A DNA stretch of 64,000 nt from Ulota crispa (lineage: Eukaryota; Streptophyta; Bryopsida; Orthotrichales; Orthotrichaceae), in assembly GCA_963920765.1 (NCBI GenBank), contig OY987243.1:7936001-8000000 (forward strand), written 5' to 3'. This document shows positions 2,960-36,115 of the stretch, one piece after another. The position numbers were made by a program, and so were the translations under genes. The stretch's first letter is position 1. The number at the start of each line of letters is the position of its first letter. The notes beneath the pieces are model-generated. The model made no database searches and was not told where the DNA came from. It saw only the letters and a program-made list of their open reading frames with translations.

Positions 2960-5146
2960 GAGGAAAAAATAGTATGAGTTGAACCGGTAGTTTCAAGATG
3001 GTTGAACGGCAAAGCTCCCGTGGGCAGAGAGTGTTGTAGAGGGTGATGGGAAAGTAAGTCAAGTTTGGTGCAAGATCTGTTCCAACGTGAAGGGAGAGAG
3101 AAACTTTTGGTTGCAAAGCTTGATTCCTTGTGGAAGCATGCAAGGCGCAGGAAGGCATTGGTGGACACAGACAAATACAAGCAAGGAGAGTACTTTTACC
3201 TAGGCAAGAACGCCCCCGTCAAGAACAAGTGCATATAGTACGCCAAGCGCGGTGACACGATCCTGGAGAAGGTGGCCAAGGACATTGTGATGGAGAGGAA
3301 GAAGAAGCTGGTTCAATTACGCATTTTGTTCCAGGTCCTTACCCAAGGACGTCCCATGGTTGATTATACGTGCATGCAACAATTGTTGCAAATGTTGGAC
3401 ACTCCTAATTTACCTTGAAAGCACTTGTCTGAGCCGTGCGGGTGGGAGTTGGCGGAGGCAATGAGATCTGTCATCTCAAACCGGGTGAAGGAGGCCCTTC
3501 AGAAGGTGTCGTGTATTTCAGTGTCGGCCGATGAGGTTACCTCAATCAATAACCAACTCTGGCTCTTGGTGCACGTTTACGTGCCTCACCTATTTGGGCG
3601 GAGGTCGCTTCTACTCTAGCTTGAGCAAGTGGTTGGTGGGTCAAATGCCGCCAACTTGCTGAGGATGATACATTTTGCTTTGATCTCCAATGGAGGACTT
3701 ATCGATGAGCAAATTGGCTAGAAAATGGTTTATTTCGGGGCCGATGGGGCTGCAATCTTCCAAGGTTGCAGGGCGGGAGTGACACAACAACTGGTCAAGA
3801 AGTATGCTCCATATGCCATTGGGGTCCATTGCATGGCGCATAGGACAAACTTAGTGGTGGAAGCTTTGTCCAACCTATCTCTAGTTCACAAACTAGAGAC
3901 ACTCTGCACTCAGCTACATTTCTACTTTGCTGCCTCTCCCAAACGGCACTTGGAGTTTACTAAACTTGCAGAGGTTGTGGAGACTAAGGGATTAAAAATC
4001 TTGAATAGGGTTTCCACCAGATGGATTTGTTTGTTGGAGCCAATGAAGCGCATCATAGAGAACTATAAGACTTTGATAGTCAAATTCAGCAAGGATGCTC
4101 AACAAGAGAGTGCTGCTAAACAAAACCTTTCCCTTCTTTATGATGTCAACACTCTTTTGGTGCTTCCTTGTTTGTACCCATTGCTAGAATGCGTTGAATC
4201 TTTGATTAAATTTGCGCAGTCTAGATCTGCTTATGTTTCTGATTACATTGCTGCTGTAAAAATATGCCAGGCGGAACTTTACCAAATCTATGTTTAATTG
4301 TCTACATCCTATTGAGCTATACATTTCTAGTTGTTCCTTGATGTAGTTGATGACCACTCTTACATTGTGAGCCAGGATTGGGTGACCAATCTAAACAATG
4401 GCAAGGAAAGCCTTTCCTTCCGTATGAACAATCACTCCTACCCAGCCCACCGCATTAGCATCGTAATTGGAGAGCGGCAGTTAGTGAGCCGTTTGGACTT
4501 TGCTGCGGCAATGACGTCTGTTAAAGGGTAGTGTTCATTAGCCGCAGAGGTCCTCATTGCTCAGCTTGATTGGAGGTTTCCTCACTCCAAGATTATGGAG
4601 GCCCTAGGAATCGTGTTTCCCCAGTTCTGGCTTGACCCCAGATGTGATGACTTGTTCCCTATCCACCTTGTAGTTCTGAAGAGCTGGTTCTGTGAGGAGA
4701 GGTTTGCACGGTCTAGGGAAGGAGTAACATTGGAGGTCAGGTAGTTTTGTGGTCTCCTAGACTCAAGGACCTTGGATCTGCAAATGTCATTTTTCAAAAT
4801 GACAATGCGTTTCCAGTCAGCCAAGGCTATGGAGCCACCTTTGGATGGCAACCCAATGACCAAGCTTTGGCAGAGATTGGGATGCAATGGTCTATTCACG
4901 AATAAGCTTAGAGAGTACATGAAACTTGTTGAAACTGTAGTGACAGCCGTGTTGGGCAATGTTGAGGATGAGAGAACCTTCTCAACCTTGAGCTTTTGCA
5001 AGAACAAGCTCCAAAATAGGCTTCAAGGTCACTTGGCAATTGTTGTTAACATGTACTCCCAGCCCTTTTACAACTTGGAGAGTTTTCCCTATGCTGAATC
5101 CTTTGACATATGGCGAGAGGCAAAGGCACGGCAAGGAGTGGACTAG
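2960..5146 (+). pseudogene. hAT-superfamily transposase relic (zf862/DUF4371-like)
   Basis: Degenerate + strand transposase spread over several frames. Around 3060-3130 is a BED/TTF-like zinc finger start (W-C-K-I-C-S followed by a K-H). At 3520-3600 lies the S-A-D-E-V-T block, and at 3725-4297 a long clean piece with the G-A-D-G-A-A block and an H-C-M-A-H-R motif typical of the hAT RNase H-like core. At 4772-5146 is the hAT C-terminal dimerisation region (G-N-V-E-D-E-R-T-F-S). The hAT family cuts and pastes DNA through a D-D-E core and dimerises through this C-terminus. The copy is dead: there are stops near 2943, 3237, 3417, 3617 and 3721 and several frameshifts. Which hAT subfamily it belongs to is a guess, but assignment to hAT is fairly secure. 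Confidence 0.8.
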
Positions 5147-5199
5147 TGACGCTCGTCAGTAAAGTAAGCTTGTAACTAGGGTGGGGGGTGGAGGGGATG

Positions 5200-5268
5200 G
5201 AGGGGGGATTGCATGCTGCGTCTGGACAGGCTCTAAGGAGCGGGGTTCAACTCCCCCATGCAATTGTG
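5200..5268 (+). repeat. tRNA-like Pol III promoter remnant (SINE head?)
   Basis: A good B-box match (GGTTCAACTCC at about 5247) lies downstream of an A-box-like stretch near 5212-5225. The flanks do not fold into a tRNA cloverleaf. It may be a tRNA-derived SINE head or the 3' edge of the adjacent hAT element. Evidence is short-motif only. Confidence 0.3.
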
Positions 5269-5310
5269 GTATGTTTTTCCTTTCCCATTTGTATGTTTTC
5301 AGATTTTGTT

Positions 5311-5645
5311 GTATGTTTCTCTTTTAAACAGTTGTTGAGTTTTTGTTCAAAGATTGATTCTTAAGCTTCTAAATATTCTTGCTGAGTATTGCTTGTATGT
5401 TTCTTTTTTAACCTTTCAATGACACTTGTTCTTAAGATTTTGTTGAAAATTTGTTTCTTAAGCTTCCAAGTATTATTCTTGAGTATTGCTGTATGTTTCT
5501 TCTTTAACCTTTAAGTGGTACTTGTTCTTAAGATTTTGTTGAAAGTTTGTTTCTTAAGCTTCCAAGTATTATTCTTGAGTATTGCTTGTATGTTTCTTCT
5601 TTGACCTTTAGGTGATACTTGTTCTTAAGATTTTGTTGAATGTTC
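5311..5645. repeat. Tandem repeat, ~96-bp unit, about 3.5 copies
   Basis: Units begin with GTATGTTTCT at 5311, 5395, 5491 and 5588. The first spacing is 84 bp, followed by 96 and 97 bp. Each unit contains an inner repeated phrase around TTCTTAAG. The array starts about 160 bases after the hAT coding relic and could be a subterminal repeat of that element. No protein-coding potential was seen. Confidence 0.85.
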
Positions 5646-5649
5646 TTTC

Positions 5650-7170
5650 TTTCATCTTCAACCTTAACTTGATGTTCAAAAGTCAAGTTTTCTAGAGGCC
5701 ACGTGCTTGTTGTTCATTTCTTTGGGGACCAAATAACCTGCTTCTAAAACCGCTGAGTTGCCACATGTTGCAGCTGATAAACTTGCAAGTAGCTAGATGC
5801 TGCCAATCAAAAAATTTCATTCGCCATCATGCGGCCCGTGTAAAAAAAATTAACTCGCCATACTCTCCCTCCGTATGTGCAAGAGGAGCCAGGAAAAAAA
5901 GGAGAAAAGAAAAAAAATTGCCACAACACGTACTTCCTTATCTGCCAGGTAGCCTATCGCCCTACCATCAAAAAACTTGGATTTATAGGCTAGGATGTAG
6001 CATTCCAATGGGACTTGCATAGATGGGAATTGGGACGTAGTGTAAACTACCCCTTTTAGTCTTTATGCATGGAACTGATGGAAGTGAATATATTGACCCT
6101 ACATGCCAGACGGGTAAGGGCTAATCTAACGAGGCTACAGTATTTGAGCTTATTTCAATTATTGTGCCCAGCAATGATAACGATAATTTGCACTAAATTC
6201 AAAGTTAATTGAATTTGCAAGGTACATATATGAGGAAGTTCATTATATTTTAATTGTAAGTTTGTAACCAACATCATGAAGTCTATACTAATTTCATGCT
6301 TTCTCAATTAGTGTGATTGTCATCTAATTGTCACCCAGCTTTCATCCAAGTCATATATTTTCATTTATTGTCATCCCGTTCAATCTTTTCATTCAAATTT
6401 AATCTAATCCAAGAGTCCACACAAATTAATTCATTTTGTTGAACTTAGTCTACATTAGCATGGAAGTAAATTGCACCTTTTTAACAATGTTTTCCATTAA
6501 CCTTAACCCCTCAACGCTCCAGCTATAAGAAAAAACACTGAAATGGGGCGCAATACATGCCCCTAGGGTGTTGAGGGGTTAAAGGACCAACTATCTCCTT
6601 GGGAGACAAGTGGTACTTTAGGCATGTTCTTTTGAATAAGCTACTTTTTGTAATTTTTTGAAATTTTTATTCAAGGTGAAAAAGTCAAAGACCTACGTGG
6701 GCATCTTTTTTTTTTTTTTTTCAATTTGACATTTGATGAAGAAGTTATGCATGAATTTATGAAAATTTGGGGAGGATTGCCTATTTGGGCAGCCCAAAAA
6801 ATTTCTTAGAAATTTACATATTTTTTAAATAAAAATTTGAAATTGGTTCTTTAGATTTTTTTAATATGTGGGAAGCTTTTGATCATTCAATTTCAATAAA
6901 TGAGATAAAAATTAGGAGGAGTTTTTGTTTGTGGGTAGTTATGGATTTTCTACTCTAAAATAAACTTTGAAGTCCTTTATTTTACTCAATTTTCAATGTT
7001 TTGGAAAAAAAATTAAACCAAAAGAAGTAGACAAGGAAGTAGATTGTTTATTAAAACATTATAACCATTGGGATTTGCATTTTTCATTTCAATAATTAAA
7101 TTCTTAACAATTTAATCTTTTGACTCATTCTCTATTTCTTTTTACTTACTATTTGTTTTCCCATGTATTA
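5650..7170. other. AT-rich non-coding DNA with a small hairpin
   Basis: No gene is visible. A short inverted repeat at about 6498-6585 has arms with the core AACCCCTCAAC and GTTGAGGGGTT separated by about 50 bases. It could be a tiny MITE. A run of 17 T occurs near 6705-6721. Confidence 0.4.
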
Positions 7171-16974: not shown

Positions 16975-18136
16975 AGAAAGAGATTGCAGCTTGTGAAGGC
17001 ATTTCAAGGTATTGTTGCGCATGTTGACGATGCCACGGTTTGAGGATTCAAAATGTCAATGTTGTAGAAACACATCACCGTCAATATGGTCAAGATCAGA
17101 GCTTGACGAAAATTATGGTGGTATGTCTTTTTCAATTCTCAGATTTTTTTTTCAATCATTACAAGGGCAGAACATACATAATACAGATTATGTTTCAATT
17201 TGTCTAATGTATAAACTAAATAACTTTAATTTTAGCATGCATTGCCTTAGTTACATGTAACAAATTGCACCCTACGCTTGGAACAATACATCCTTTGAAT
17301 AGCACATGAAAATGAGATCAAGTTTTTGTCACATGTCATATCCCTCTGACTACTCGTATTTTGTGGAAATGTTGTGAACAGAGTCCAGAGACAACAGAGA
17401 CTAAGGTCATAGATTCTGAGTACTCCTCAACGGATGCTACTAAAGAACGTTTTTAGGATGCAATGGAGGATCTTGATCTTCTCGAAGTGCTTGACAACGT
17501 GGAGTTTAATTTCAATGACATGGCCAAAATGTTTTTTGGGCGAGCAGACAACATATACCGTCAGGTTTCAGAATCAGAGGAGGAAGTTGAATATTCTTGT
17601 GATGCAATTCTTGAAGATATGGGAGGATTTAGCAATGAAGAAGAAGACAATGCAGACATACGCAATGATTTTCTAGAAGAAGCTGCAACACCACTCTTTC
17701 CTGGATCAAAGAGCAGCAGGTTACAATTCTGCATCATTCTAATGAACATTTCCACTTTGTTCTCTATAAGTCACCAATGTCTAGATGAGATTCTGATATT
17801 CTTAAATAGAAAGACGTCCTCCTTGATGGTAATAGTTGCCTTGTTAATTCGTACAAAATCAATAGACTATTATTCAAGTTGGGTCTGTCATACAAGAGTA
17901 TGTATTGTTGCGATTGTAGAAGAACGCTATATTGGAAGGAGAACTCCACATTGCAAAGCTGTCCGGTGTGCCAAAAATCTAGGTATATTCCTGGATCTAT
18001 TACCGTGCCAACACGCGTCCTTCAATACTTTTATTTGATTAAATGATTGCGTAGGATGTATAGATGTCTTCAAATTTTGAAACTCATGAGGTAGTATAGT
18101 AACGGTCATTCCACAGATGGGAAGTGTCACGCAAGT
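16975..18136 (+). pseudogene. CACTA transposase (TNPD/tnp2), N-terminal half
   Basis: The first segment (about 17010-17125) has a C-x-C-C cluster resembling the N-terminal zinc region of these proteins and ends near a possible GT donor. After an intron, 17463-17755 gives an acidic linker leading to the L-F-P-G-S-K block. From 17822 (another frame) come the conserved L-G-L-S-Y-K, the Y-W-K-E-N and the C-P-V-C-Q-K-S-R-Y blocks, then V-P-T-R-V-L-Q-Y-F. This is the standard opening of Transposase_21 (tnp2 family). There are in-frame stops at about 18039 (TGA, likely Arg CGA) and 18093 (TAG, likely Trp), plus a frameshift between 17755 and 17822. The coding match stops abruptly at about 18136 and picks up again at 52445, so this half was severed by insertion. 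Confidence 0.85.
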
Positions 18137-18555
18137 GGGGTGGCCACAACATTTGCATTGGCGCCAACAAGATGGAGCCGGCAAGGTGGATGAAGGTGGA
18201 GTGGAGGTCATCAAGGGCCTTGGCTCTTGGCCCAAGCCAAGGACTTGGCACCTCATTTGGGCACCTCAAGGCCCATGATCTCCACGTGGAGGTATGGAAG
18301 ACTCATCTTTCTCTAAGTTGAGTCTTCCACGTGATGGAGTGAGAGGCTGTTGCCTTGCAACTCTGTCTCAGCATGCACACATCCTTCAAGGATGGTGTAG
18401 ACTTGACTACTTGTGATCTTGTGAAGTTTTTTCAACTTCTTTAGGAGTTTTTCCTCACCTTTTATTCCTTAGAAAAAGATCATTTGTGCACATGGGTGTA
18501 AGCACGACGTAGTGAAAACACCTAAATTGCAGTTTGTAAGAATTTGTTGTGAGCA
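18136..18555 (+). repeat. LTR-like segment at the left edge of the 34-kb insertion
   Basis: It starts with TG exactly where CACTA transposase homology ends, and it ends in CA at 18555. It is followed by AAGAGCTATGG, a degenerate relative of the initiator-tRNA-Met primer site plus ATGG that follows many plant LTRs. It contains a perfect 10-bp hairpin (GGAAGACTCA at 18297, TGAGTCTTCC at 18319). I did not find a matching second LTR or a 5-bp target duplication, so the call is tentative. It may be the 5' LTR of an element whose 3' end is lost. Confidence 0.35.
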
Positions 18556-20279: not shown

Positions 20280-22800
20280 TTAATCTGTTCAACTGGTCAT
20301 CGTAGGGAGCACTTTGATCCCAACTTTCGTAAAAAAAAAAGGCTTTTTTGATACATCCCAGAAATCTAGGCATATGTCCTTACTTTTTCAGGACCAAGCA
20401 TATTCTACAAGAATCTTGTCATCAAGCTTACTAACTCAAATATATAGGAGCAATAAGAATCATATTGTTTAGGAATATTTTCCTATCATCCTTTGTCAAA
20501 TCAAAACTAGGATATTGTCATTTATAAGGCTAGATTAGAATCCTTGTTAAGGTAGTCTAAGTATCAGTGCAGAACAATATACTTATGAAAACAAAGAGTA
20601 ATAGCTAGTGTAGCTATTTGAGACAATAAAAATCTCTCTTTCATACTGTGTTTGCTTTAATATTCTAAGAAAAAAACTTCTTTGGTGATACTCTTTTTGG
20701 CTGGCATTATAAAGAGCCATGTACCATGTATATGGTAACATAGCCGTGTAAGAGTATAAAGTAGCCTAAACAGCAGGTTTATATCAGCAATTTTACTGTA
20801 TATTATAGTTAGAATTTCCAATAGTGGGCCTCAAATTTTTTTGTCAAGAAGGCTGTGCACTATAATAGGCGCTCTTAGGTTAACCCAATAGCAAAAGCAG
20901 TAATAATAGGTGAAACTCTTAGCAGTAATTGACTATCTAGAGATCTAAAGCTATAAGACCATACGTGACCAGTACTAATACCACAATCAGATTGGCAAAT
21001 ATTCAATATTATCCATAGACAATACAAAGCCATGCATACAATTTATTGCTTGGTGCTGTAGCCATGTAAACCCTAAAAATATGTCCAAAACTTATAAGTA
21101 GCAGAATAGGTTTTTCATGGTAAAACAATCCAACTTGCATTCAAGATAAGTTTGCAAATATTGACCGTAAGGAGAGTAAAGCAAAAAACCCCCTGAAGCT
21201 TTAGAGATTTTACAGCAAATAGGCCATAATAGAAAGTATTTGCAGTTCATTGATTAGAAAAAAGTACTACTGGTGTATCCAAACCCTAAAATATTTTTTG
21301 TGAACCACCGTAAACTAAGAATAGTTTCTTCAAACAAAATATTTTGAGCAATTTGACAAAGCAAGAGTTTGAGGGGAGTAGCGCAAATCTGGAGTATTTG
21401 GTAGATCTTCCAAGAGACTTTAGACCTCACATGTGCCCATCCCAATGCACACAAAAAAGCCAACGTTATGTTAGAGGGGATGCATAAGGTGTCTTCAATC
21501 CAAACTATTTGTAATCATCTTCACGAGGATAATCATGCAACAACGCAAACAAGCAACTACTAAAAGAACACTCAAAACTCAAATAGAACCTATGTAGCCA
21601 TAGGTAGTATAGTATTCAAGCTCCAAAAAATTAGCCCCAGTGTCTGAGCAGTAGAGTATTCTAGTTACTGCATATACTATTGCTCAATGATCAAAAGTCA
21701 TACACATGCAGAGCTCAGAAACACAAAGCGTGCGTCTAGTATAGTGAAAGCACTATTCAGCATTACAGTGAGCAATCTCAGACTTGGGAGAGATGACCTA
21801 GCTGTCTAGTCGTTAGAGGTGCAACCCTAATCCTAGGTTTTGAGTCGTCCAAAATAAGTGATTGGCCATGTCAGAGTTTTAATTTGGCCCTAGATCTCAA
21901 TCTACTAAGGCACGTAGTCCTTAAGCAACCTCAATTTTTGAAAAAGTGAGGGAAACTCTTACTCAAAGTAACTCTATAAGACTAATTGTAAAGTATGCTT
22001 TTAACATTGCTATCATTAAGCAAGTAAATTAGAAAAGCAATAAGCTATAGTACTACCAGGGAGCAATAGAAGCCCTATATATTTCATAGTGTTATCAATA
22101 ACTTTGAAAAGTCACTTACTATATTTAAGTCATGGAGGATACTTTTAGGTATTTTATCTATGTAGTTTTTTAGTCAAGAGATTGGAAGAGAATCATTTTA
22201 CATGGTTATTATTAGTGTCTTTGCATTCCTAGGATTACTAGAAGTTAATAGTTTATTGAGCTGAAAGCATGTGCTTTATTTCCTAACATTTACCTTAAAA
22301 GACAAGGCTATATGCCAAGCATTAGCTAACACTACTATTCTTGTTGCAAGACTCTACAAGTATAGTACAAGGAACTGATACTTAAAATAGAATCTTGAAA
22401 AAATTTAAAAAAACCTAATTCCTAAGCCTTAATAGAATCTATTGAGAGCTCCATTTAACTTGTAAATGTGAGTTCTATGGGTTAGTAGAGGGATACGAAG
22501 TTGGTCTAAATGGTGTAATAGTGGATTTTGAGAGTTTTGCTTTTGCTTATTCACTTTATCATCTTGCCATTGAAGCTTCATGGGTTAGGGATTGTTTTCT
22601 TTTACACTCCACTGCTAGCAAGTTGGCTATTATGAAGCCAATTTGCATAGCATAAGTGGAAATCACAAGGAAACCTACACCATATGTGCAAATTGCACAT
22701 AAGTAGCTATTTTGGAGCTACTCATAGTGTTCAATTTAAACTATGTGGGTAGGTTAGCTAGGGTTACCTAGAGGGTGGTTGATTGAGTGATTCTACATTC
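20280..22800. other. AT-rich non-coding DNA
   Basis: No protein is recognised. Composition drops sharply at about 20280. This stretch precedes the gypsy element and may contain its unrecognised 5' LTR, but I found no copy of it after 30.9 kb. It holds one tRNA-like motif pair, listed separately. Confidence 0.35.
21785..21850 (+). repeat. tRNA-like sequence (SINE head?)
   Basis: An A-box-like TAGCTGTCTAGTCG at about 21800 is followed by TTAGAGGTGC. A B-box-like AGGTTTTGAGTCG (a decayed GGTTCGANNCC) lies about 25 bases later. The order and spacing resemble a tRNA-derived SINE promoter, but acceptor and T arms do not pair, so it is not a functional tRNA gene. Confidence 0.35.
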
Positions 22801-23878: not shown

Positions 23879-25267
23879 ATGGCAATGTCATATGGAAGCG
23901 CCGACAGGGGAGTACAGAGTTTTTCAAGTGCCATAGGCACCATGGAGTGCGATGATTTCAGGAGGGAGTTCACCATGTGGTGTGAACTTCAGAAATCACG
24001 CAACGCTAGTTTCAACCTTTATATGGTATGGAGGGCATTGTTTGGGTGTCTAGATGGAGCACCACTCTCAGACTATGGAGAGTTTGAGCTTTGCTATGCC
24101 ACAGAGATTTTGGCATGGCGAAACTACTACGCACCTACCTACGCCCATGTGTAGGGAGAAGAGTCTAGCGTGGTGACTACAGTCAGCAAGGGCAAGAAGG
24201 AGGAAGGGACTTCAGTGGCAGAAAGAGATGTCTCCATCACCACCACGACTACTATAGTGGCTAGCTCGCCTCCATTCAACCCTATTGCCCAATTCTTTGC
24301 ACAATTGAAGCAGGATTACCAAAGACAACAAGCTGACAAGATGAAGTTGTTGCGGTCATTTGCTCGTGGGAGTGACAAATCATTGTAAGAGGCGCATTTG
24401 AGACTAAGGCAGTTAATATTTGCCACACATAGAGTGATTGAACAGCAAGCTATGCAGCAATGGTATTCTATTTTGGACAAGGAGCTTAAGGCCCTTGTTT
24501 GTGGAGTTGCTTTGAGGTTAGGTGTACCACCAACCTTGAGGTATGTATTTGAGACCTCAGAGAGGATCAAGATCAATCTCTTGGAGGAGAAGGCGGCCAT
24601 GGGGTTTCTACACAAGGATGAGAAATAGCATGAGAAACCTAAGGCTGCTAAAGTGAGCATTCCAGCCAACGTGGGCAACTCCAACAATGTGTATTTCAAA
24701 TGTGGAGTCGCAAGCCATTGCCAGAGTGACTGCAAGAAGCAGTCTAAGAAGGAATCTGCCAAATTTGGTGGATTTTGTTCTAGATGTGGTATCAAAGGCC
24801 ATCTAGAAGTGACTTGCTACAAGATTCATCCAGAACTCAAGCTCAATTGTTCTAAGGACACCAAGGGAGAGGACTCTAAGGAGTCTAAACCCATAGGTGG
24901 AGAGAAGAAGTCGTGGAAGGCTCGATTCACAGAGTTGGAGGCGAAGATGACCACTATGAGTGCCACTATCAACGCCAAGGGGTCTCCTTCACAGACAAAG
25001 ACCACATCCTTTTATGCGGAGGATGAGGACCACATGTTATGTGATATGGCAGATCCACATGGAATGCCAATAGATGGTTTTGTGACGATGCGAAGCAAGA
25101 CTGTGGTGCACAATGCGCCACAAGGGGCAAGCATAAGGTTGGATCCCCAACGCGGAGAGGCCAATTGTCAAGCCGGGCTACCTGAGTCTTTTACTTTGGA
25201 AGATGTAGTACCTACTTCATCAATGGTCCCACATGTACAAAATGTGAGTAGTTGGCAAACTACTTGA
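23879..25267 (+). pseudogene. gag-like capsid/nucleocapsid region of the gypsy element
   Basis: Three successive pieces follow: 23879-24154, 24170-24388 with a Thr/Ser-rich linker and helix, and 24398-25267. The last contains two CCHC knuckles near 24690-24825. The second knuckle is perfect (C-S-R-C-x4-H-x4-C). The first has lost its leading Cys to Tyr (Y-F-K-C). CCHC knuckles bind RNA for packaging. Stops at about 24152, 24386 and 24626 interrupt the frame. Coding-like but shattered sequence upstream (about 22950-23880) may be the gag N-terminus. Capsid assignment rests on position and knuckles, not on sequence similarity. Confidence 0.7.
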
Positions 25268-25599
25268 GTTCCACAAGTAGCATCTCATACCACAGGACAC
25301 TCCTTAAGGTGGCTACAGCTGTATGTCAAGCTCCTTTCTTTTCTGTGTCCATGATTGCATAGGCACAATTTAGTGCCACTACGGTGTTCCAGTTGGCGGC
25401 TACCATGTGTGAGGCGGATTCCTCAACAACAATGAGCGCCATGGACATTGTGCTCAAGCCTATGACGGTGACTAGTGGTGATGGAATTGAAGCAGATGGT
25501 TTGCTAGCAGTAGCTGCTCGATTGAAGACCATGCCAGCACGTTTGGCAATAGAGTGGTCATCCATCACTCTTGGAGTGGTAGTTCTTGACAACTCGTAG

Positions 25600-25944
25600 G
25601 GTATTTTCCAACTTGTTGGGCCCAAAGGGAGAGTTTTTACACCTCGGCGGGTACTATTAGATTCCGGTGCACAATCCTTGATGCTAGGCTTATCAGCCAT
25701 TGAAGGCTTGGGTTTGACCAAGGACACATTAGAGACGTGCTCGTGGACAATTAGCACTTCAATGGGAGGAACAGAGCAAGCAAATGGCATCATAAAGGGC
25801 GAGTTGACACTTGGACTTTGTCATGATCATGTTGAGGATGCTAGCTTCATGAAGGTGAAGGCCATAGTCACAAAAGCCAAGTCATATGATGTCTTGGTAG
25901 GTGCTATGGCATTGTACTCTATGGGTTTCACCTTGGACTTTTGA
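25600..25944 (+). pseudogene. Retroviral-type aspartic protease of the gypsy element
   Basis: The active-site motif L-L-D-S-G-A sits at about 25654-25671 and is followed by a beta-rich stretch with V-L-V-G-A-M-A-L, as in retropepsins. The family cleaves the polyprotein as a dimer, with one D-[ST]-G per monomer. The frame ends with TGA at 25942-25944, where a Trp codon (TGG) would keep the polyprotein open. Coding then continues in the same frame through a linker into the methyltransferase, so the domain was probably not separate originally. Confidence 0.75.
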
Positions 25945-26280
25945 AAGGAAACGGCATCTTACAGGCCAAGACAGCAAGCAGGAGATGGGTGTAAAGCCCA
26001 GCTGCCAGCTCATTTCATAAAAGTTCTTACCGGTAATCTTGCCAATCTCTATTGTTTCTCTGGGTTTGTGGCTATAGACTAGCCTTTGTTTGAGAAGGAT
26101 TTTGGAAATCCTTATACTACTGCATTGGTGGCCAAAGTCCAAGTAGATGACCATTTAGACAGCTTGGAGGTTGGGGGCAACGTTTTATATCAACCAGGCA
26201 TCGAAGCTGCATGAGAGAGTCCTGCCAAGCTACAACGAGCTGCAAAAACTGTCATCCAAGAGGCGTGGCAAGAACCTCTT

Positions 26281-27517
26281 TTGCCACAAGAGGAGGTCAT
26301 AACAAAAGGAGGTGCGAAAGATGCAGGCCCCCCTCTTGATATCTCTAAGATCCACTGGAAGCCACCTCACAAAGGTATTATTCTATTGGAGTTATTTGGT
26401 GGTATTGGCACTGGATTGGCTGCAGTATTGCAAGTAAAGGTGAAGGTGCAACTCTATGTCCATGTGGACAACGATGCTCTAGCACGTCAAGTGGCTAAGA
26501 GGCACGTTTGGCAATTGCATAAGGCATTCCAAGCCTTGCTGAGCACCCATGCCATCAAGGCCGCATTTTCTACATTACTAAGTGACATCACGTTTATATC
26601 ACGCGACGACGTTGTACGATTGGAACCTGTGGATTTGGTTATTGCAAGATGGCCATACCAAGGTCTATATATAGCGGGTAAGCAGAATGGTCTTAGAGAT
26701 GGACGCTCTTCTCGATTCCATGATATGGTGCGGATTGTGCGCCACATGTAGACGACATAGCGATAGCCACTCGATTATTATTGAGAACGTGCCGGTAATG
26801 ACTATGTCACGGACTCGGGCCCTTGAAAGTAGTTTCCGCTTTCATGAAACTCTTGGAGTTCTTGTGCTACTAGATACAGCAGCGGAGGGCTCAAGGGCTC
26901 ATAGACCACAACTTTGGTGGACCAACATGGCACCGGTGGAGCTATTGCAGGCGGCCATTAAGCGCATTCACCACCCCGATGCCTATGTCAGAGAGATTTT
27001 TGATCCTCAGCGGTTCCTTTGTCGAGTTTATCATGATGATTCGGCTCCTTTGGCAATGGTCAACTGCAAGGGCAAGCCTTAGCAAGCATTGCCTACATTG
27101 GTGAGCTTCTCATGCTTCTATGCATTCAAGGACAACGTTCCTAGATTGCTGTGGAATGCATACACTGAGGAGATGGTGGAGCTTAATACCAATGAGCAAA
27201 AACAAGCTATGGGGTTCCAAACCGGCGTCATTAAAGCACCATGCATCACAAAGTTCCAGAGGAAATACTTCATTGGCCAAGCCATGGACTTGAATTGTCT
27301 ATCATGGGTTATTTTGTTTGTGGTGGCCGAGCAAAGGCGGTTTGCTTCAAAGATGCCAGCACACTTTGCATTCTATGCGTGGCATGCGGCCATAAAATCA
27401 TCAAAATCTGCAGATTCAGATTTGGTGGTTGGAGGCGCAGAGGCCTTTGCAACTCATCCATGGAATTTTTGGAAGGATACTCCATTTTTCACTACTCCTA
27501 GAGTTACTTGGCTTTGA
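26281..27517 (+). pseudogene. DNMT3-like C5-cytosine DNA methyltransferase domain embedded in gypsy pol
   Basis: The domain transfers a methyl group from S-adenosylmethionine to C5 of cytosine. Visible motifs are: motif I, L-E-L-F-G-G-I-G-T-G-L (about 26385-26418); motif II, H-V-D-N-D-A (about 26460-26477); motif IV, D-L-V-I-A-R-W-P-Y-Q-G (26632-26664), followed by G-L-R-D-G-R-S-S-R-F; motif VI, I-I-E-N-V-P (26777-26794); a motif VIII-like A-E-G-S-R-A-H-R-P-x-L-W-W (about 26880-26918), as in DNMT3; and motifs IX-X, with M-G-F-Q-T-G and I-G-Q-A-M-D-L-N (about 27208-27300). Motif order is standard, not rearranged as in plant DRM. The nucleophile Cys of the P-C-Q motif is Tyr (TAC, 26656-26658), one G-to-A change, so this copy would be inactive. 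A frameshift lies between about 26740 and 26774, with stops at 26749 and 27080. It shares its frame with the upstream protease. Confidence 0.87.
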
Positions 27518-27539
27518 TGGGAAGAGCTGGCCAAGCCTA

Positions 27540-27850
27540 AACTTGAACTATAGGAGCAAATGGAGAGGCTATTAGCTGAAGAGTCCATATTGTGCCAAAC
27601 ATGTGAACTAGGGCAGATGGACCAAGTTGAAGGTCAATATAGTATGACTGCCATAGAACAAGATGAGTTTGCTCCAAGCGACGTGCAATAGCAACCAAAG
27701 GTGGAAAACTCTGCTTCAAGAGAATATCGGAAGGTAGCAGTGACCAAGGACACTTGGAAACCACTTGTGGGCTTGGAAGATGAAGTAGAGAGGATGGAGG
27801 AGCAAGAGTTCTCAAAGAGTATGTTGATTGCTTTGCCTTTGGCCTGAAGG
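27540..27850 (+). other. Linker between methyltransferase and reverse transcriptase
   Basis: Glu-rich coding-like sequence containing a C-Q-T-C-E pair and many Glu/Asp residues, broken by stops. It joins the methyltransferase to RT in the ancestral polyprotein. No domain recognised. Confidence 0.4.
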
Positions 27851-29470
27851 ACTTGAGAGTTTTGAAAAGACAAGAGGTACAGATAGACTTGATGGATGAT
27901 GCGCCTGTTTATTGCAAACTGTACAAGTATAGTGAAGCAAAACACAAAATGATACAAGATTGGACCATAGAGTTGTTAGAGACAAGATTGGTGGAGTTAG
28001 CACCACCAGATTGCAAATACACATTGGCGACAGTTATGCCATCTAAGAAAGATGTTTTTGGCAATTGGACCAAAAAAAGGATGTGTGGAGACTATTGGCA
28101 AATCAACAAATTCACGAAGTTTGACCGCTATGCTATGCTAATGCTAGAGGAGAACTTCAACGCCATAAGCCATACCAAGGTATTTAGTACTTTGAATCTT
28201 TGGTCAGGTTATGACCAACTTGACATTTGAGAATGTGACAAAAATAAGACGCCATTCTGGGGGATTGACAAAGATGGTAAAGACTGCCTCTATCAATGGA
28301 GGTTCCTTCCATTTGGTTCAAAGAATGCACCTATTGAGTTTCAAAGAATTATGGATTGTATCTTTTTTGTAATGAACTTTGTGAAATGTTATATTGACAA
28401 CATCATTGTCTATAGCATGAATACAAAGCAACATTGAGTTCACCTATAGGAAGTCTTCACTAGACTAAGGCTCCACGGTTTGAAACTACATCCAAACAAA
28501 TATAAATTTTACTATGACCGCGTGGAGTATTTAGGCCATATGATATATCCAGGAAGATTGGGAGTGGTTGCTAGCAAGGTGGCAATGATGATATCTATTC
28601 CAAGGCCAAAAGACATGAATAGATTGCAGGCATTCTTGAGATTGTACAATCAATATGGAAAATTTGTGAAGACGTTCAGTGGCATCACAAAGCCATTAAC
28701 CATGTTGACAAGGAATGATCAACCTTGGATTTGGGGAGATAAGCAAGAGGCAGACTTCTTACAGTTGAAAAAACGTTTATTATCGGCACCAATATTGAGG
28801 AGGCCAATTTTTGGTAGATCATACCAAGTGCACACCGATTGGAGCTCACTGGAGATTGGCGCGGTATTGACTCAAATGGACAATGATGGCAAGGAGTTTA
28901 TGGTAGCTTATGTTAGTTGCTCCAACAACAACGCGAAGGTACAGTATAATTTGTACAATGGAGAGTGTTTAGCAGCATTATGGGCAATTGCTCATTTTGT
29001 TGCTATCTATATGACAACAAATTCTTGCTGATGACAGACCATCAACCGTTGAAGTGGCTAATAGAGTCCGATAAGCTTACAAGAAAGCTTGCACAATGGG
29101 CCCTGATGCTCATGGAGTATGATTTCAAAGTTGTGCACCGTGCTAGTTTTATCAACATGGATGCTGACAGCCTCAACCACAATCTAAGTCTCAACCAAAT
29201 AGACTCTATGGGGGCTAGATGGCACCTAGAGGAGAGAGAAGATTTGTTATCAAGGTGGCATTTAGCTGCCTACTTGAACATACTAGCGACAAATAGAGAC
29301 ATCACCGAGAAAGTCATTGATGTCTTAGTAAATCTGGATGGTAGTGAGGAGTCTGAGGGCGCCAAAGACATCTTTGACAATGTGGAGGTGATAAAATACT
29401 TGAAGCATGGCGACTTAGCAATCAACGCTTTGGCCAAAGAAAGAGATTGGATTCTGCAACAAACCAAATA
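27851..29470 (+). pseudogene. Gypsy reverse transcriptase and RNase H
   Basis: RT spans about 27880-28620: the C-x-D-Y-x-x-I-N block (28087), the F-S-T-L-N-L-x-S-G-Y block (28180-28215), the L-P-F-G-S-K-N-A-P block (about 28303) and the catalytic Y-I-D-N-I-I-V-Y (28390-28413), then the Y-L-G-H-M-I block (28528). Two catalytic Asp positions read Asn: L-D-L became L-N-L, and Y-[IV]-D-D became Y-I-D-N. Both fit a G-to-A transition. RNase H follows, with V-H-T-D-W-S-S (about 28828) and the Y-N-G-E-C-L-A-A block. A stop at about 28228, one near 28436 and a frameshift near 29000 break the frame. The protein would copy RNA into DNA and degrade the RNA strand; this copy cannot. Confidence 0.85.
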
Positions 29471-29539
29471 GTTTGCATGAGAAGAGATTCATTTGCTTTA
29501 AATATAGTCGGATGGTAATAAAAAGGTGGTACCGGCACC

Positions 29540-30410
29540 TCATGAGAGAGTGAAATTAGTTATGCATGCTCACAAGGACTTAGGGCACTTTGGAGTGCGG
29601 AGGATTCACAATTTGCTATAGATTCACTATTAATGGCAAAGCATGCAAATGCAAGTCCAACAATTGGTAGCCAGGTGCACGGTATGTGACAGAGTATGGG
29701 CAACATTTAATGCCTCAATGCCTCAGTTGCAGCCATTATCAATCATGGTATTGGACTACAAGTGGAGTTTGAAATTTGCAAGACCATTGCCAGTGACCTC
29801 ACGACACAACAAGTACATGTTGGTGATGATTGAGCACTTTTTCAAGTGGATTGAATTGGTGGCCCTACCTGACAAGTTTAGCAAACATGCAGCTTATTCA
29901 TTCTTGGATTGTGTATTGAGTTGCTTTGGAGTTCTAGCAGAGGTGTTGACTGATCAAGGCCAAGAGTTCCTTGGCGAGTTCCAAGCCTTGTATGAGCAAG
30001 CAATGATCAATCACTGCACTACTTCAAGAAATCACCCCAAAGCGGATGGTTTGATGCAACGCATGGTACAAACCGTCAAGAGGAGACTTTGGAAGTATAG
30101 CTTGAAGAAGAGGCATCATGGAGATTAGGACTTGTAATTTCTGTAGATTGCTATGGGCTACCGATTAAGTAAGCAAACTTCTCTCGCTTCTTTTTCACCC
30201 TATTATTTATTATTTGGGCGTCATCTGGTTTTACCAATGGCAATCAAGCAGGATGCAGATAAGGTGCTAGATCACATGGATGATCCAGACACTTGGACTT
30301 GCTCATGCAAGCAACGGGCGGAATTGTACAAGAGGGAGATGTCGATGGCTTTGGAAAACCTTTCTATTGCGCAACATAGAGACACTCTGCAATATGCTAT
30401 GATTTGAGGA
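29540..30410 (+). pseudogene. Gypsy integrase
   Basis: The zinc-binding N-terminus is readable as H-x-x-x-x-x-H (about 29563-29590) and R-C-T-V-C-D (about 29673-29690). The core contains L-T-D-Q-G-Q-E-F (about 29946-29970), which supplies the second Asp. The first Asp position reads Lys in W-S-L-K-F-A, and the Glu of the third motif reads Gln in A-D-G-L-M-Q-R, so the D-D-E triad is broken. A Y-x-L-L-F-G-R-H block (about 30210) is typical of the gypsy integrase C-terminus. The family inserts the cDNA into the genome. Stops at 29619, 29634 and around 30126 interrupt it. It continues in the same frame (0 mod 3) into the PHD region. Confidence 0.82.
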
Positions 30411-30659
30411 GGAGGCTACAAGCCTCAAATGCAATGTTTTTTGCTTGGTGACTATGCATATTTATAGCAAACAACGCCCACCACCCTCAACGTCAAAGCA
30501 GGGCATATTATTCTACAAGTTCGCAAGGTGCTCAAGTCAGAAGTTTTGCTCTAGGAGGGTTGTGATAGCAAGATCTGAAAGGATCACACGCGCAATTGTG
30601 CGCCGCGTCATTTGTCACATATCAACAGCAATATTGATTCCAGCAGGTCATGCATCTCA

Positions 30660-30887
30660 GCAAGGCTAAAGTGCGTGTTATGTGGGAGCGCCAAAGGTGC
30701 TGCCACCGTAGTGTTGTGCAATGTCTGTTTGACTGGGTGGCACATGGATTGTTTGACTCCGCCGTTATAAGAAATTCCGGCGAGCCGCTGGGTTTGTTCC
30801 AAGTGTGTGTTGGGGCGCGGACAAGCAGCTTCATTTTTGTACGGTTTTCCATTGGATTCTCATGAGTTCTTCAGAGAAGGCCACTAA
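30660..30887 (+). pseudogene. PHD finger at the C-terminus of the gypsy polyprotein
   Basis: 30672-30806 spells a complete Cys4-His-Cys3 pattern: C-V-L-C, 11 residues, C-N-V-C, 4 residues, H, 2 residues, C, 14 residues (one of them a stop), C-S-K-C. The surrounding G-W-H-M-D-C-L-T-P-P-L, I-P-A and the final Trp two residues before the last Cys pair are the classic PHD signature. PHD fingers bind histone H3 tails. Placed after integrase, one could tether the integration complex to chromatin, as chromodomains do in chromoviruses; that role is inference. One stop (TAA, 30768-30770, one C-to-T change from Gln) interrupts it. The frame ends at TAA 30885-30887. Confidence 0.85.
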
Positions 30888-30919: not shown

Positions 30920-30933
30920 CAAAGGGGGCAAGG
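30920..30933 (+). promoter_or_regulatory. Candidate polypurine tract of the gypsy element
   Basis: An uninterrupted purine-rich run (AAAGGGGGCAAGG) lies about 33 bases after the last stop of the polyprotein, the usual place for the primer of second-strand synthesis. Supporting evidence from an adjoining 3' LTR is missing. Confidence 0.4.
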
Positions 30934-32106
30934 ATATAAGTACACTAGAGGTATACCAATTTGGGTGTCACAATGCAAAAATGACCAAATATTGTTTTTG
31001 TACTTGAATTTATTAATAGTTTAAACAATTTTTTAGGGATTTTCTATCAATAAAGGGTTGACTACAAGTCTTAAGTTTATAGAATGATGAATGAAAAACC
31101 TAAAACCAATTTCAAAGACAATTAAATTTGTACTTTTCATTGATAGTAATAAAATGTCACAGTACTTCAAATTCAATAAAAGTAATTTTTTTTCTGCCTC
31201 AGAGAATCTAATTTCCTTTGGTTTGAATTTTGCAAATTTATTAGAGTTGGATCTACTTATATCTATAGCCAAATTTAAAAACAAATCTTACATTAAGCAA
31301 GGAAATACAAATTTGTAATGATTTTTTTGACATGGTATAACTTTTGGAATATAAACTTAATTTTAATTTTTTTTCCAGAGTCTACACAATTGTTGCAAGT
31401 CCCAGAATGGCTTCTACTTATAATTAATAAATCTCATTTTTTAGCATAAATACACTTAGGGTAACAACTGTAATTTTGACGTACAAATCCTTCAATAGTA
31501 CAATTGTAGTATTTCTAGAAGATCCGTTATTTAATGGCGCTGCCTTGTTTGAAGATACCTCTTTTTTAGATTCCCGCCAAGCTCTAATATTGGCACCAAT
31601 GTGGCCCTTGTTTATCCCCACATAGGGTTATATCTGCATTGTTGATAGATCTTTCCTGCATGCTTCCCTGTTTTGCAAAGGCGCCAAGATTTCAAATTTT
31701 GTCACCTTTGCAAATGCATGCTATATTTGGAGTAGTTGTTGTATCTCTTGCAACGTCACTTCCCTAGCAACGTGAACTGGCTAGGAACGGAAACTCTTTT
31801 GCAATGTCAACTCAATAGGATCAAAAACTCCTTTGCAACGTCAACTTGATACAATCAAAAACTCCTTTGCAACTTCAACTTGATAGGATCAAAAACTCCT
31901 TTGCAATGTCTATTTTTACCTAGCTTGTTTGTTTTCAGGGTTGATCTCTAAGTATCTAAGCTTGCTTATTCTGTATTTCTCTGCTCTGTCACTAAGTTTT
32001 GTGAGAAATTTGCCTTTCAAACTTCACTGCAAAAGAGTTATTCTAAAGGTCCCAACAAAGGCATTCTTGAATACTATTGCTTATTAGTTTTGCAGTGTGC
32101 TAATAG
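30934..32106. other. AT-rich spacer, possibly 3' LTR or flank
   Basis: No gene. If the purine tract is real, the gypsy 3' LTR should begin here, but I found no upstream copy. The last ~300 bases contain the 34-bp tandem repeat listed separately and lead into the three-gene block. Confidence 0.35.
31785..31911. repeat. Tandem repeat, 34-bp unit, about 3.7 copies
   Basis: Units containing ATCAAAAACTCCTTTGCAA start at 31819, 31853 and 31887, each 34 bases apart, with a more diverged unit at 31785. A weaker related piece (GCAACGTCACTT, GCAACGTGAACT) precedes it from 31750. It could be a subterminal repeat of the element that begins here. Confidence 0.85.
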
Positions 32107-35457: not shown

Positions 35458-36115
35458 CAAATTTCATAAAGATTTTAAAAAGATTTTCAAAGATTCCAAA
35501 AAGGTTTTTGAAAATTCTTAGAGATTCTCAAAGATTTTAAAATTTCCAAAAAGATTCTCAAAAGATTCTCAAAGATTCTTAAAGATTCTTGAAGCTTCTC
35601 AAAGCTTCCAAGAAGATTCCAAGAAGATTCTTAAAGGTTTTCAAAAATTCTCCAAAAATTTCAAAATTCCTAAAACATTTCCAAAGATTCTCAAATATTC
35701 CAAACTATTCTCAAAGATTCTCAAAAATTCTCAAATATTCCTAAAAGATTCTCAAAGATTCCAAAAAAACTTGAAAAGATTCTCAAATATTTCCAAAGAT
35801 TCTCAAAGATTCTCAAAGATTCTCAAAGATTCTCAAAGATTCCTAAAAGATTCTCAAAGATTCTCAAGGATTCTCAATTGTCCTCAAACATTCTCAAAGA
35901 TTCCAAAAAAACTTGAAAAGACTCCTAAAGATTTCCAAAGATTCTCAAAGATTCCTAAAAGATTATCAAAGATTCCAAGAAGATTTTCAAAGATTCTAAA
36001 ATCTTGAAAAGATTCTTAAATATTCTTAAAAATCCTAAAAAGACCCAATGATTCTCGAAATATTCTTAAAGATTCACAAAAAATTCCCAAAAGATTCCCA
36101 AAAGATTTCAATTTT
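35458..36115. repeat. Minisatellite, ~10-11-bp unit (TCAAAGATTC type)
   Basis: Dozens of variants of TCAAAGATTC follow one another with a period near 10-11 bp. The array is densest at 35790-35870, where the phrase repeats almost exactly, and degenerates at both ends from about 35290. An open frame across it (35771-36007) is just the repeat translated and is not a gene. It occupies the right subterminal part of the nested CACTA element. Confidence 0.9.

Follow-up and report, generated by a model that had tools for sequence, protein, structure and literature searches.

A cytosine-5 methyltransferase (MTase) that lies among retrotransposon domains in a moss genome raises the questions of whether it is a regular part of the element and of what use it could be there. 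We examined a stretch of 64,000 nucleotides from Ulota crispa (contig OY987243.1, positions 7,936,001 to 8,000,000; C2:7936001-8000000 in our numbering), hereafter called the window. The original prediction had placed a DNMT3-like C5-MTase with canonical motif order downstream of a retropepsin and upstream of a gypsy RT. This was borne out by Pfam PF00145, a profile of the family, tblastn and the relatives of the element. The N-half of the MTase in the ORF at 26281-26751 matched PF00145 above the cut-off (E = 7.7e-5). The family profile located the N-half in frame 1 and the remainder in another frame, the MTase of the window being split over two frames, across which motifs I, IV, VI, VIII and IX-X are readable. 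When the intact relative L066 was used as the tblastn query, Gag, protease (PR), MTase, RT, RNase H, integrase (IN) and a PHD finger were found in this order from 23921 to 30806 (Table 1), with matches at 25303-26742 (PR/MTase N-half), 26777-27340 (MTase C-half) and 28965-30806 (RNase H/IN/PHD). The gypsy domain order PR-RT-RNase H-IN was detected using both Pfam and tblastn. The MTase lies where it had been placed (26281..27517), but the element is wider, extending from 18125 to about 30941, and includes a previously unlisted PHD finger downstream of the integrase. We regard this anatomy as well supported, with little room for doubt.

Table 1. Features of the element copy in the window (window positions)
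Feature	Position	Strand	Evidence or remark
Terminal repeat A1, 5' end of element, starts TGTCAC	18125..18466	+	boundary common to other copies
Gag remnant, frame 2	23921..25351	+	tblastn, L066 ORF1 residues 70-580, E 4.6e-17
CCHC zinc knuckle within Gag remnant	24776-24817	+	read from sequence
Retropepsin-type protease (D-S-G-A), frame 1	25600..25941	+	PF13650, E 3e-5; at least 61 own-genome matches
MTase N-half, motifs I-IV, frame 1; PCQ to PYQ	26281..26751	+	PF00145; 71 homologous proteins; at least 94 own-genome matches
MTase C-half (VI, VIII, IX-X) and linker start, frame 2	26777..27517	+	tblastn, L066 ORF1 residues 1065-1253 against 26777-27340
Conserved stop TAG-CAA-CCA (type UAG-CAR-YYA), between MTase and RT	27689..27697	+	homologous in 30/30 copies
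RT and RNase H, frame 1	27811..28998	+	tblastn, L066 ORF2, E 1.6e-134; PF17919, E 2.8e-22
RNase H end and integrase, frame 3	28965..30128	+	tblastn, L066 ORF2; rve, E 6.5e-10
PHD finger, C-terminus of integrase ORF, one internal stop	30672..30806	+	PF00628, E 1.2e-5 (window), 4.3e-10 (L066)
Purine-rich tract	30921..30934	+	directly 5' of repeat B start in other copies

The window copy is dead. The frame of the MTase changes near 26750, a TAG interrupts it at 27080-27082, and the codon of the catalytic Cys at 26656-26658 has become TAC (Cys to Tyr). Further, the third catalytic motif of the integrase reads MQR (Q) in the window versus AER (E) in the copy C5:2214517 (comparison with L041). Terminal repeat A1 is directly preceded by GAAG (18121-18124) and shares 84% identity with A2, the internal repeat, in the copy C5:22168539. 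At the other end, homology to other copies stops at 30932-30942, where the purine-rich tract would pass into repeat B; repeat B is lost, and no target duplication is recognizable. About 2 kb of the window copy (20341-22397) has no counterpart at the homologous place in C5:2214517 and is probably a later insertion. Tandem arrays with periods of about 10 bp and 34 bp lie 3' of the element at 35463-36056 and 31744-31930.

The U. crispa genome (274.8 Mb, 157 contigs) was searched with separate pieces of the element as queries; all counts are lower bounds. At least 94 matches were found to the MTase N-half, at least 69 to the C-half (stretch 27089-27514), at least 61 to the protease and at least 82 to the PHD finger, and 150 of 679 candidate RNase H matches were scored. 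Merging of the pieces yielded at least 90 MTase loci. RNase H was present downstream of the MTase at 80 of these 90 loci (73 of them at +1.8 to +2.4 kb), protease upstream at 58, the PHD finger downstream at 69 and the MTase C-half at 63. PR, RNase H and PHD occurred together at 40/90 loci, and only one locus had none of the three; they always lay on the same strand as the MTase, with no case on the opposite strand. Conversely, among the RNase H matches, an MTase lay 1-9 kb upstream of 74 of the 81 top-scoring ones and of none of the 42 weakest (29-34% identity) of the 150 scored, indicating that the trait belongs to one clade of gypsy-like elements, other copies of which carry the MTase as well. 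Protein and own-genome searches identified other copies of the element, and no host gene at this locus, as the closest relatives of the MTase.

The suggested search of the source genome for intact copies of the same order recovered the order, which recurs over the 90 loci; all the genome copies examined were decayed, and intact ones came from environmental sequences. Across the decayed copies, the reading-frame relation was clear only for PR-MTase (39/58 in phase) and for the two MTase halves (38/63). Two head-to-head inverted pairs of copies with identical scores, C3:32753925(-)/32773842(+), about 20 kb apart, and C4:9403126(-)/9413237(+), about 10 kb apart, represent large palindromes or assembly artefacts.

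The relatives found in protein searches extend beyond this moss. Among 71 matches to the window ORF, the best environmental protein was 60% identical over 99% of its length, and the whole ORF of another genome copy was up to 70% identical to an environmental protein. Two relatives, P0072 (637 aa, PR-MTase) and P0106 (943 aa, Gag-PR-MTase), are free of stops and retain motifs I, IV, VI, VIII, IX and X. L066 (CADCWO010000201.1) is a 9,285-bp contig whose 127-base terminal overlap makes it circular, with 9,158 bp. Its ORF1 encodes 1,346 aa of Gag-PR-MTase and is followed by TAG-CAA-TCA, after which the same frame continues for 1,047 aa of RT-RNaseH-IN-PHD. The named eukaryotes among the matches listed were liverworts, Calypogeia fissa and Marchantia polymorpha, the latter with a gene model of 961 aa (P0114) that is a Gag-PR-MTase (best 120 of 129 matches). 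Family sequence also occurred in bacterial MAG records, namely L066 (a contig of a Synechococcales MAG) and P0074 (Obscuribacterales, 'DNA cytosine methyltransferase'), which are apparently mis-binned plant DNA. Two scans of viral contigs found no relatives of the family, and prokaryote genomes, scanned once with one pattern, yielded only one contig, seemingly mis-binned. No Klebsormidium sequence was among the matches listed in the protein searches, whose length and number of candidates were restricted.

The broken state of the window copy would speak for a chance insertion of an MTase, or a pseudogene fusion, at this locus alone. This explanation is refuted by the same-strand RNase H downstream (80/90) and protease upstream (58/90) of the MTase loci, by intact relatives in other samples, by the environmental protein with 60% identity over 99% of the ORF, and by relatives in liverworts. 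The recurring PR-MTase-RNase H order likewise upholds the earlier argument against a chance insertion. We conclude that the window copy belongs, in decayed form, to a Ty3/gypsy-like family of a bryophyte (moss) genome that has stably retained a DNMT3-like MTase.

The proposal of one ancestral polyprotein held only in part. The PR-MTase-RNase H order recurs genome-wide, but a conserved in-frame UAG lies between Gag-PR-MTase and RT-IN-PHD, and the coding region is therefore not one open polyprotein. We aligned this region in 30 copies (27 of the 30 loci L009-L038, without L016, L027 and L031, plus L003, L004 and L039), in which the members of the identical inverted pairs L024/L025 and L036/L037 are not independent. 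A stop codon was present after METHYLTRANSFERASE at the homologous place in 30/30 copies, and the full context UAG-CAR-YYA in 22/30. The departures were YYG (L013, L019 and L028), TAA (L024, L025, L035 and L004) and a change of CAA to TAA (L030). CAR-YYA after a stop is a readthrough signal of plant viruses (PMC2194720). If the stop is leaky, each initiation would yield the upstream MTase together with Gag and PR, and RT-IN-PHD would follow on readthrough only; from this sequence context, we infer readthrough and a Gag-level dosage and packaging ratio of the MTase.

To classify the METHYLTRANSFERASE, we compared a profile built from 14 family proteins with solved structures, which gave DNMT3A as the best match (E = 4.8e-18), followed by HaeIII (4.5e-8), DRM2 (1.2e-7), HhaI (2.7e-7) and DNMT2 (1.2e-3). 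The motif order is canonical and unpermuted, with I before IV, VI, VIII and IX-X, and the family MTase is therefore not a DRM. Motif VIII of the family, AHRxRxxWxN, is of the DNMT3A type. Animal DNMT3 has ADD or PWWP as a companion domain (PMC12344493). No Pfam match to either domain was found at E 0.01 in L066:15-3488 and 3504-6632, a scan that begins after the first 188 residues of ORF1. A DNMT3A fragment used as the query did not recover a host DNMT3 gene; the best matches were DRM-type exons, which are separate loci (L002 and L005). Host C5-MTases of another type (VDLVVGGFPCQDLS... and VDLLVGGFPCQDLS...) were noted at L006/L064 (C4:24075336) and L007 (C7:7376917) and apparently belong neither to DRM nor to the element family.

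Phage enzymes resemble the family as well. Phage records matching the family MTase numbered 296, with about 25-32% identity and annotation as C5 MTases, where annotated, in 15 of them. It is possible, at less than even odds, that the captured MTase was a C5 enzyme of phage or bacterial type and not a host DNMT3. The match of phrog_116 to P0072 (E = 2.5e-22) agrees with such an origin, as do motif IV, which is PCQ in the family and in six phage MTases but PCN in DNMT3A and two host DRM exons, and identity over motifs I-VIII, which for five family proteins was 26-37% to the six phage MTases and 30-32% to the DNMT3A fragment. In contrast, DNMT3A ranked clearly above HaeIII, DRM2 and HhaI among solved structures, motif VIII agrees with DNMT3A, and the single-pattern scan of prokaryote genomes yielded only the one seemingly mis-binned contig. 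Few phage enzymes are represented in the PDB. In an unrooted tree of 163 columns from motifs I-VIII, the family was set apart (99.9/100), DNMT3A grouped with the DRM exons (76/83), and the phage MTases stood apart. We call the MTase DNMT3-like by its best solved-structure match, but phage C5 MTases are about equally similar, so that capture of a host DNMT3 is only one possible origin.

By its dN/dS values, the MTase is under purifying selection. Compared with L066, dN/dS of the MTase in six genome copies was 0.165-0.209, near the values for RT (0.135-0.207, six copies), Gag (0.20-0.28, five copies) and PR (0.07-0.14, six copies); that of the PR-MTase linker was 0.31-0.43 (six copies). These comparisons all contain the L066 branch and are thus not independent, dS is high (0.4-1.4), and the values are too high because the genome copies are dead. 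The catalytic Cys is retained in 22/30 copies and replaced by Tyr in six (including the window) and by Arg in two. Singleton changes were mostly C-to-T/G-to-A (313 versus 61 T-to-C in one subfamily; 405 versus 154 and 269 versus 125 in two others) and hit CG, CHG and CHH sites. Such decay is as expected from host silencing alone and is no proof of activity of the element. CpG o/e in the coding region of the intact contig L066 was 0.78, and there is thus no strong sign of long self-methylation. Depletion of CpG as proof of self-methylation was rejected, as the flanks were equally depleted in two of three comparisons.

A PHD finger (PF00628) occupies the place after the integrase in the window and in L066. 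Chromoviruses carry a chromodomain at the integrase C-terminus; they, including moss clades, are thus similar to the moss family in having a chromatin-reader module there, but the moss family has a PHD finger instead, an extra MTase and different termini. The top matches of one PHD finger of the family to solved structures (best 60 of 90) included PHF12, CHD4, DPF3, KDM5, BHC80 (PHF21A), ATXR5, UHRF1 and AIRE. Several of PHF12, CHD4, KDM5, BHC80, ATXR5 and UHRF1 are readers of histone H3 with unmodified (unmethylated) K4. DNMT3 pairs with its ADD domain, and the combination of a DNMT3-like writer with a PHD reader recalls this pairing, although in the element the two are split over two parts of the ORF.

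The ends of the element differ from ordinary LTRs, with repeat A at the 5' end and repeat B at the 3' end. In both main subfamilies, repeat A begins with TGTCAC and repeat B ends with (G/A)ACA, with some decay. Among 22 3' ends (17 + 5), 12 were B1-A2-B2 and 10 had a single B, giving the layouts A-coding-B-A-B (12/22, in both main subfamilies) and A-coding-B (10/22). A1 and A2 within one element were 92% identical, and B1 and B2 were 81-91% alike in six copies. The B1|A2 joint was CGACA-GC-TGTCAC in better-kept copies and in the intact contig L066. The termini are TG...CA, and 19 elements with both ends (those of four A-type copies set by eye) were scored for a 4-bp target duplication, which was perfect in 10, had one mismatch in seven and was lacking in two. 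Repeat B did not abut A1 at the 5' end in any of 21 copies tested; one of them had a weak 45-base match to repeat B on the other strand, some 900 bases from A1. Neither ungapped repeats nor blastn revealed a direct LTR pair in the window, and C5:2214517 had no terminal pair. A 168-bp inverted repeat (C5:2208356-2208523 and 2219503-2219668, 90% identical), one side of which abuts the C5:2214517 element, was rejected as its terminus, lying outside the element ends by comparison with other copies.

Could these ends derive from an ordinary LTR element by rearrangement? As B1 and B2 form close direct repeats (81-91% alike across the six copies), recombination between them would produce single-B copies and spare the target duplication, and it is a good explanation for these copies alone. 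A-coding-B-A-B would then have to be a tandem artefact, yet it makes up 12/22 of the 3' ends and occurs in both main subfamilies, its B|A joint CGACA-GC-TGTCAC is also present in the intact contig, and A1 lacks an adjoining repeat B in 21 copies. We therefore consider rearrangement quite unlikely. A purine-rich tract lies directly before B1 in ten sequences, of which one is degraded and one (the window) is without B. If this tract is the polypurine primer, the equivalent of the LTR is B-A, and integrated copies resemble the DNA of an LTR element cut at the LTR-internal joint. A circle as the integration substrate would explain both end forms, B1-A2-B2 and single B. A pattern search within the element found no tRNA-iMet primer-binding site.

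What, then, might the MTase do? As part of the Gag-level product, it would be in excess over RT and would be packaged in the particle, where cDNA of the element would become its substrate, either while reverse transcription is under way or once it is complete. With the PHD finger as a tether to histone H3, the integrase would then insert a pre-methylated copy, which may be tolerated as silent or not be sensed as foreign DNA. This explanation, comprising a selected MTase, its Gag-level dose, methylation of own cDNA and PHD-tethered insertion, has a probability of roughly 0.6 in our estimation; within it, self-methylation of element DNA by Gag-level MTase is our best guess at the function, at slightly better than even odds. 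It is supported by the same-strand arrangement of PR, MTase, RNase H and PHD, by intact ORFs in environmental DNA, by the Gag-PR-MTase gene model of Marchantia, by the homologous stop with its readthrough context, by the dN/dS values and retained Cys of the MTase and by the PHD matches; the C-to-T decay, the CpG o/e of L066 and the eight of 30 copies that depart from the full stop context speak against it. As a precedent, de novo methylation of CG is on record for some retrotransposon DNMTs (PMC5890265).

Alternatively, the MTase may act on host chromatin and not on element cDNA, either by de novo methylation of loci of the host, of competing elements or of viral DNA that enters the cell, or by dampening the element itself, a self-restraint that spares the host. 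The high dosage implied by the Gag-level position would suit this role; an antiviral function of transposon methylases has been proposed (PMC6338049) and slowed retrotransposition discussed (PMC5890265). However, selection on the MTase is near that on RT and Gag, which suits a cis role in the replication cycle, and there is little sign of a domesticated single copy, with only 1/90 loci lacking PR, RNase H and PHD. We thus think a host-chromatin role unlikely. The fullest version of the cDNA-methylation explanation is doubtful as a whole: a land-plant element with its own silencing kit, consisting of a methylation writer at Gag dose, an H3 reader on the integrase and a circle opened at B|A by a DDE integrase. 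If this were true, two-LTR circles would give A-coding-B-A-B and one-LTR circles A-coding-B, both with target duplications, and the element would be methylated before it settles in silent chromatin.

Capture of MTases by retrotransposons, cited in the original prediction, is indeed known from dinoflagellates and Klebsormidium, with SymbioDIRS-Dnmt3, SymbioLINE-Dnmt and KnitGypsy-Dnmt3 (PMC5890265), and a 2025 survey of DNMTs cites that article for retrotransposon DNMT3s (PMC12344493). The closest known system, compared here by its published description, is KnitGypsy-Dnmt3 of the alga Klebsormidium nitens. The moss family has its defining trait, a C5-MTase inside the coding region of a gypsy RT-RNase H-IN element. 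In KnitGypsy-Dnmt3, too, the ORF of the element (Pol) joins a DNMT3-like MTase to gypsy domains, its repeats are described as DIRS-like in the legend of Fig. 4, and its Ka/Ks, below 0.2, is similarly low (de Mendoza et al., 2018; PMC5890265). Unlike the moss family, it resides in a charophyte alga and not in a land plant; 'phd' never occurs in the main text of that article, whose passages on this element mention neither a leaky stop nor target duplications (PMC5890265). SymbioDIRS-Dnmt3 and SymbioLINE-Dnmt are also retrotransposon-borne DNMTs under purifying selection (PMC5890265), but have DIRS (tyrosine recombinase) or LINE backbones, whereas the moss family has a DDE integrase and a gypsy RT.

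The A-coding-B-A-B order is shared with DIRS/Ngaro elements (split direct repeats), which use a tyrosine recombinase (PMC5890265), in contrast to the rve integrase, TG...CA ends and 4-bp duplications of the moss family. In L066:15-3488 and 3504-6632, Pfam matched no tyrosine recombinase and an rve integrase instead. To our knowledge, DIRS/Ngaro elements make no target duplication. Ty3/gypsy elements of orchids reportedly carry an m6A RNA demethylase domain, the acquisition of which is called recent in the title of the report. They too are land-plant gypsy elements with an acquired nucleic-acid-modifying enzyme, but enzyme and substrate differ, and the moss family has relatives that include liverworts.

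As originally predicted, no land-plant report of an MTase-bearing retrotransposon was among the matches listed in searches of the open-licence PMC literature, and a 2019 article states that land plants lack transposons with methylases (PMC6338049). New in this family are its hosts among land plants, a probably leaky stop downstream of the MTase, the PHD finger, and split repeats that end in the DDE manner; the Klebsormidium element may share some of these features. Because plants silence transposons by methylation, it is paradoxical for a transposon to maintain a methylation enzyme by selection. Hitherto, this paradox came from algae and dinoflagellates; the family brings it to bryophytes, which offer genetic models in a moss and in the liverwort Marchantia, and corrects the printed claim that land plants have no such elements. 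With the leaky stop, the PHD reader and gypsy ends on a DIRS-like layout, the bryophyte setting makes the use of the enzyme to the element directly testable.
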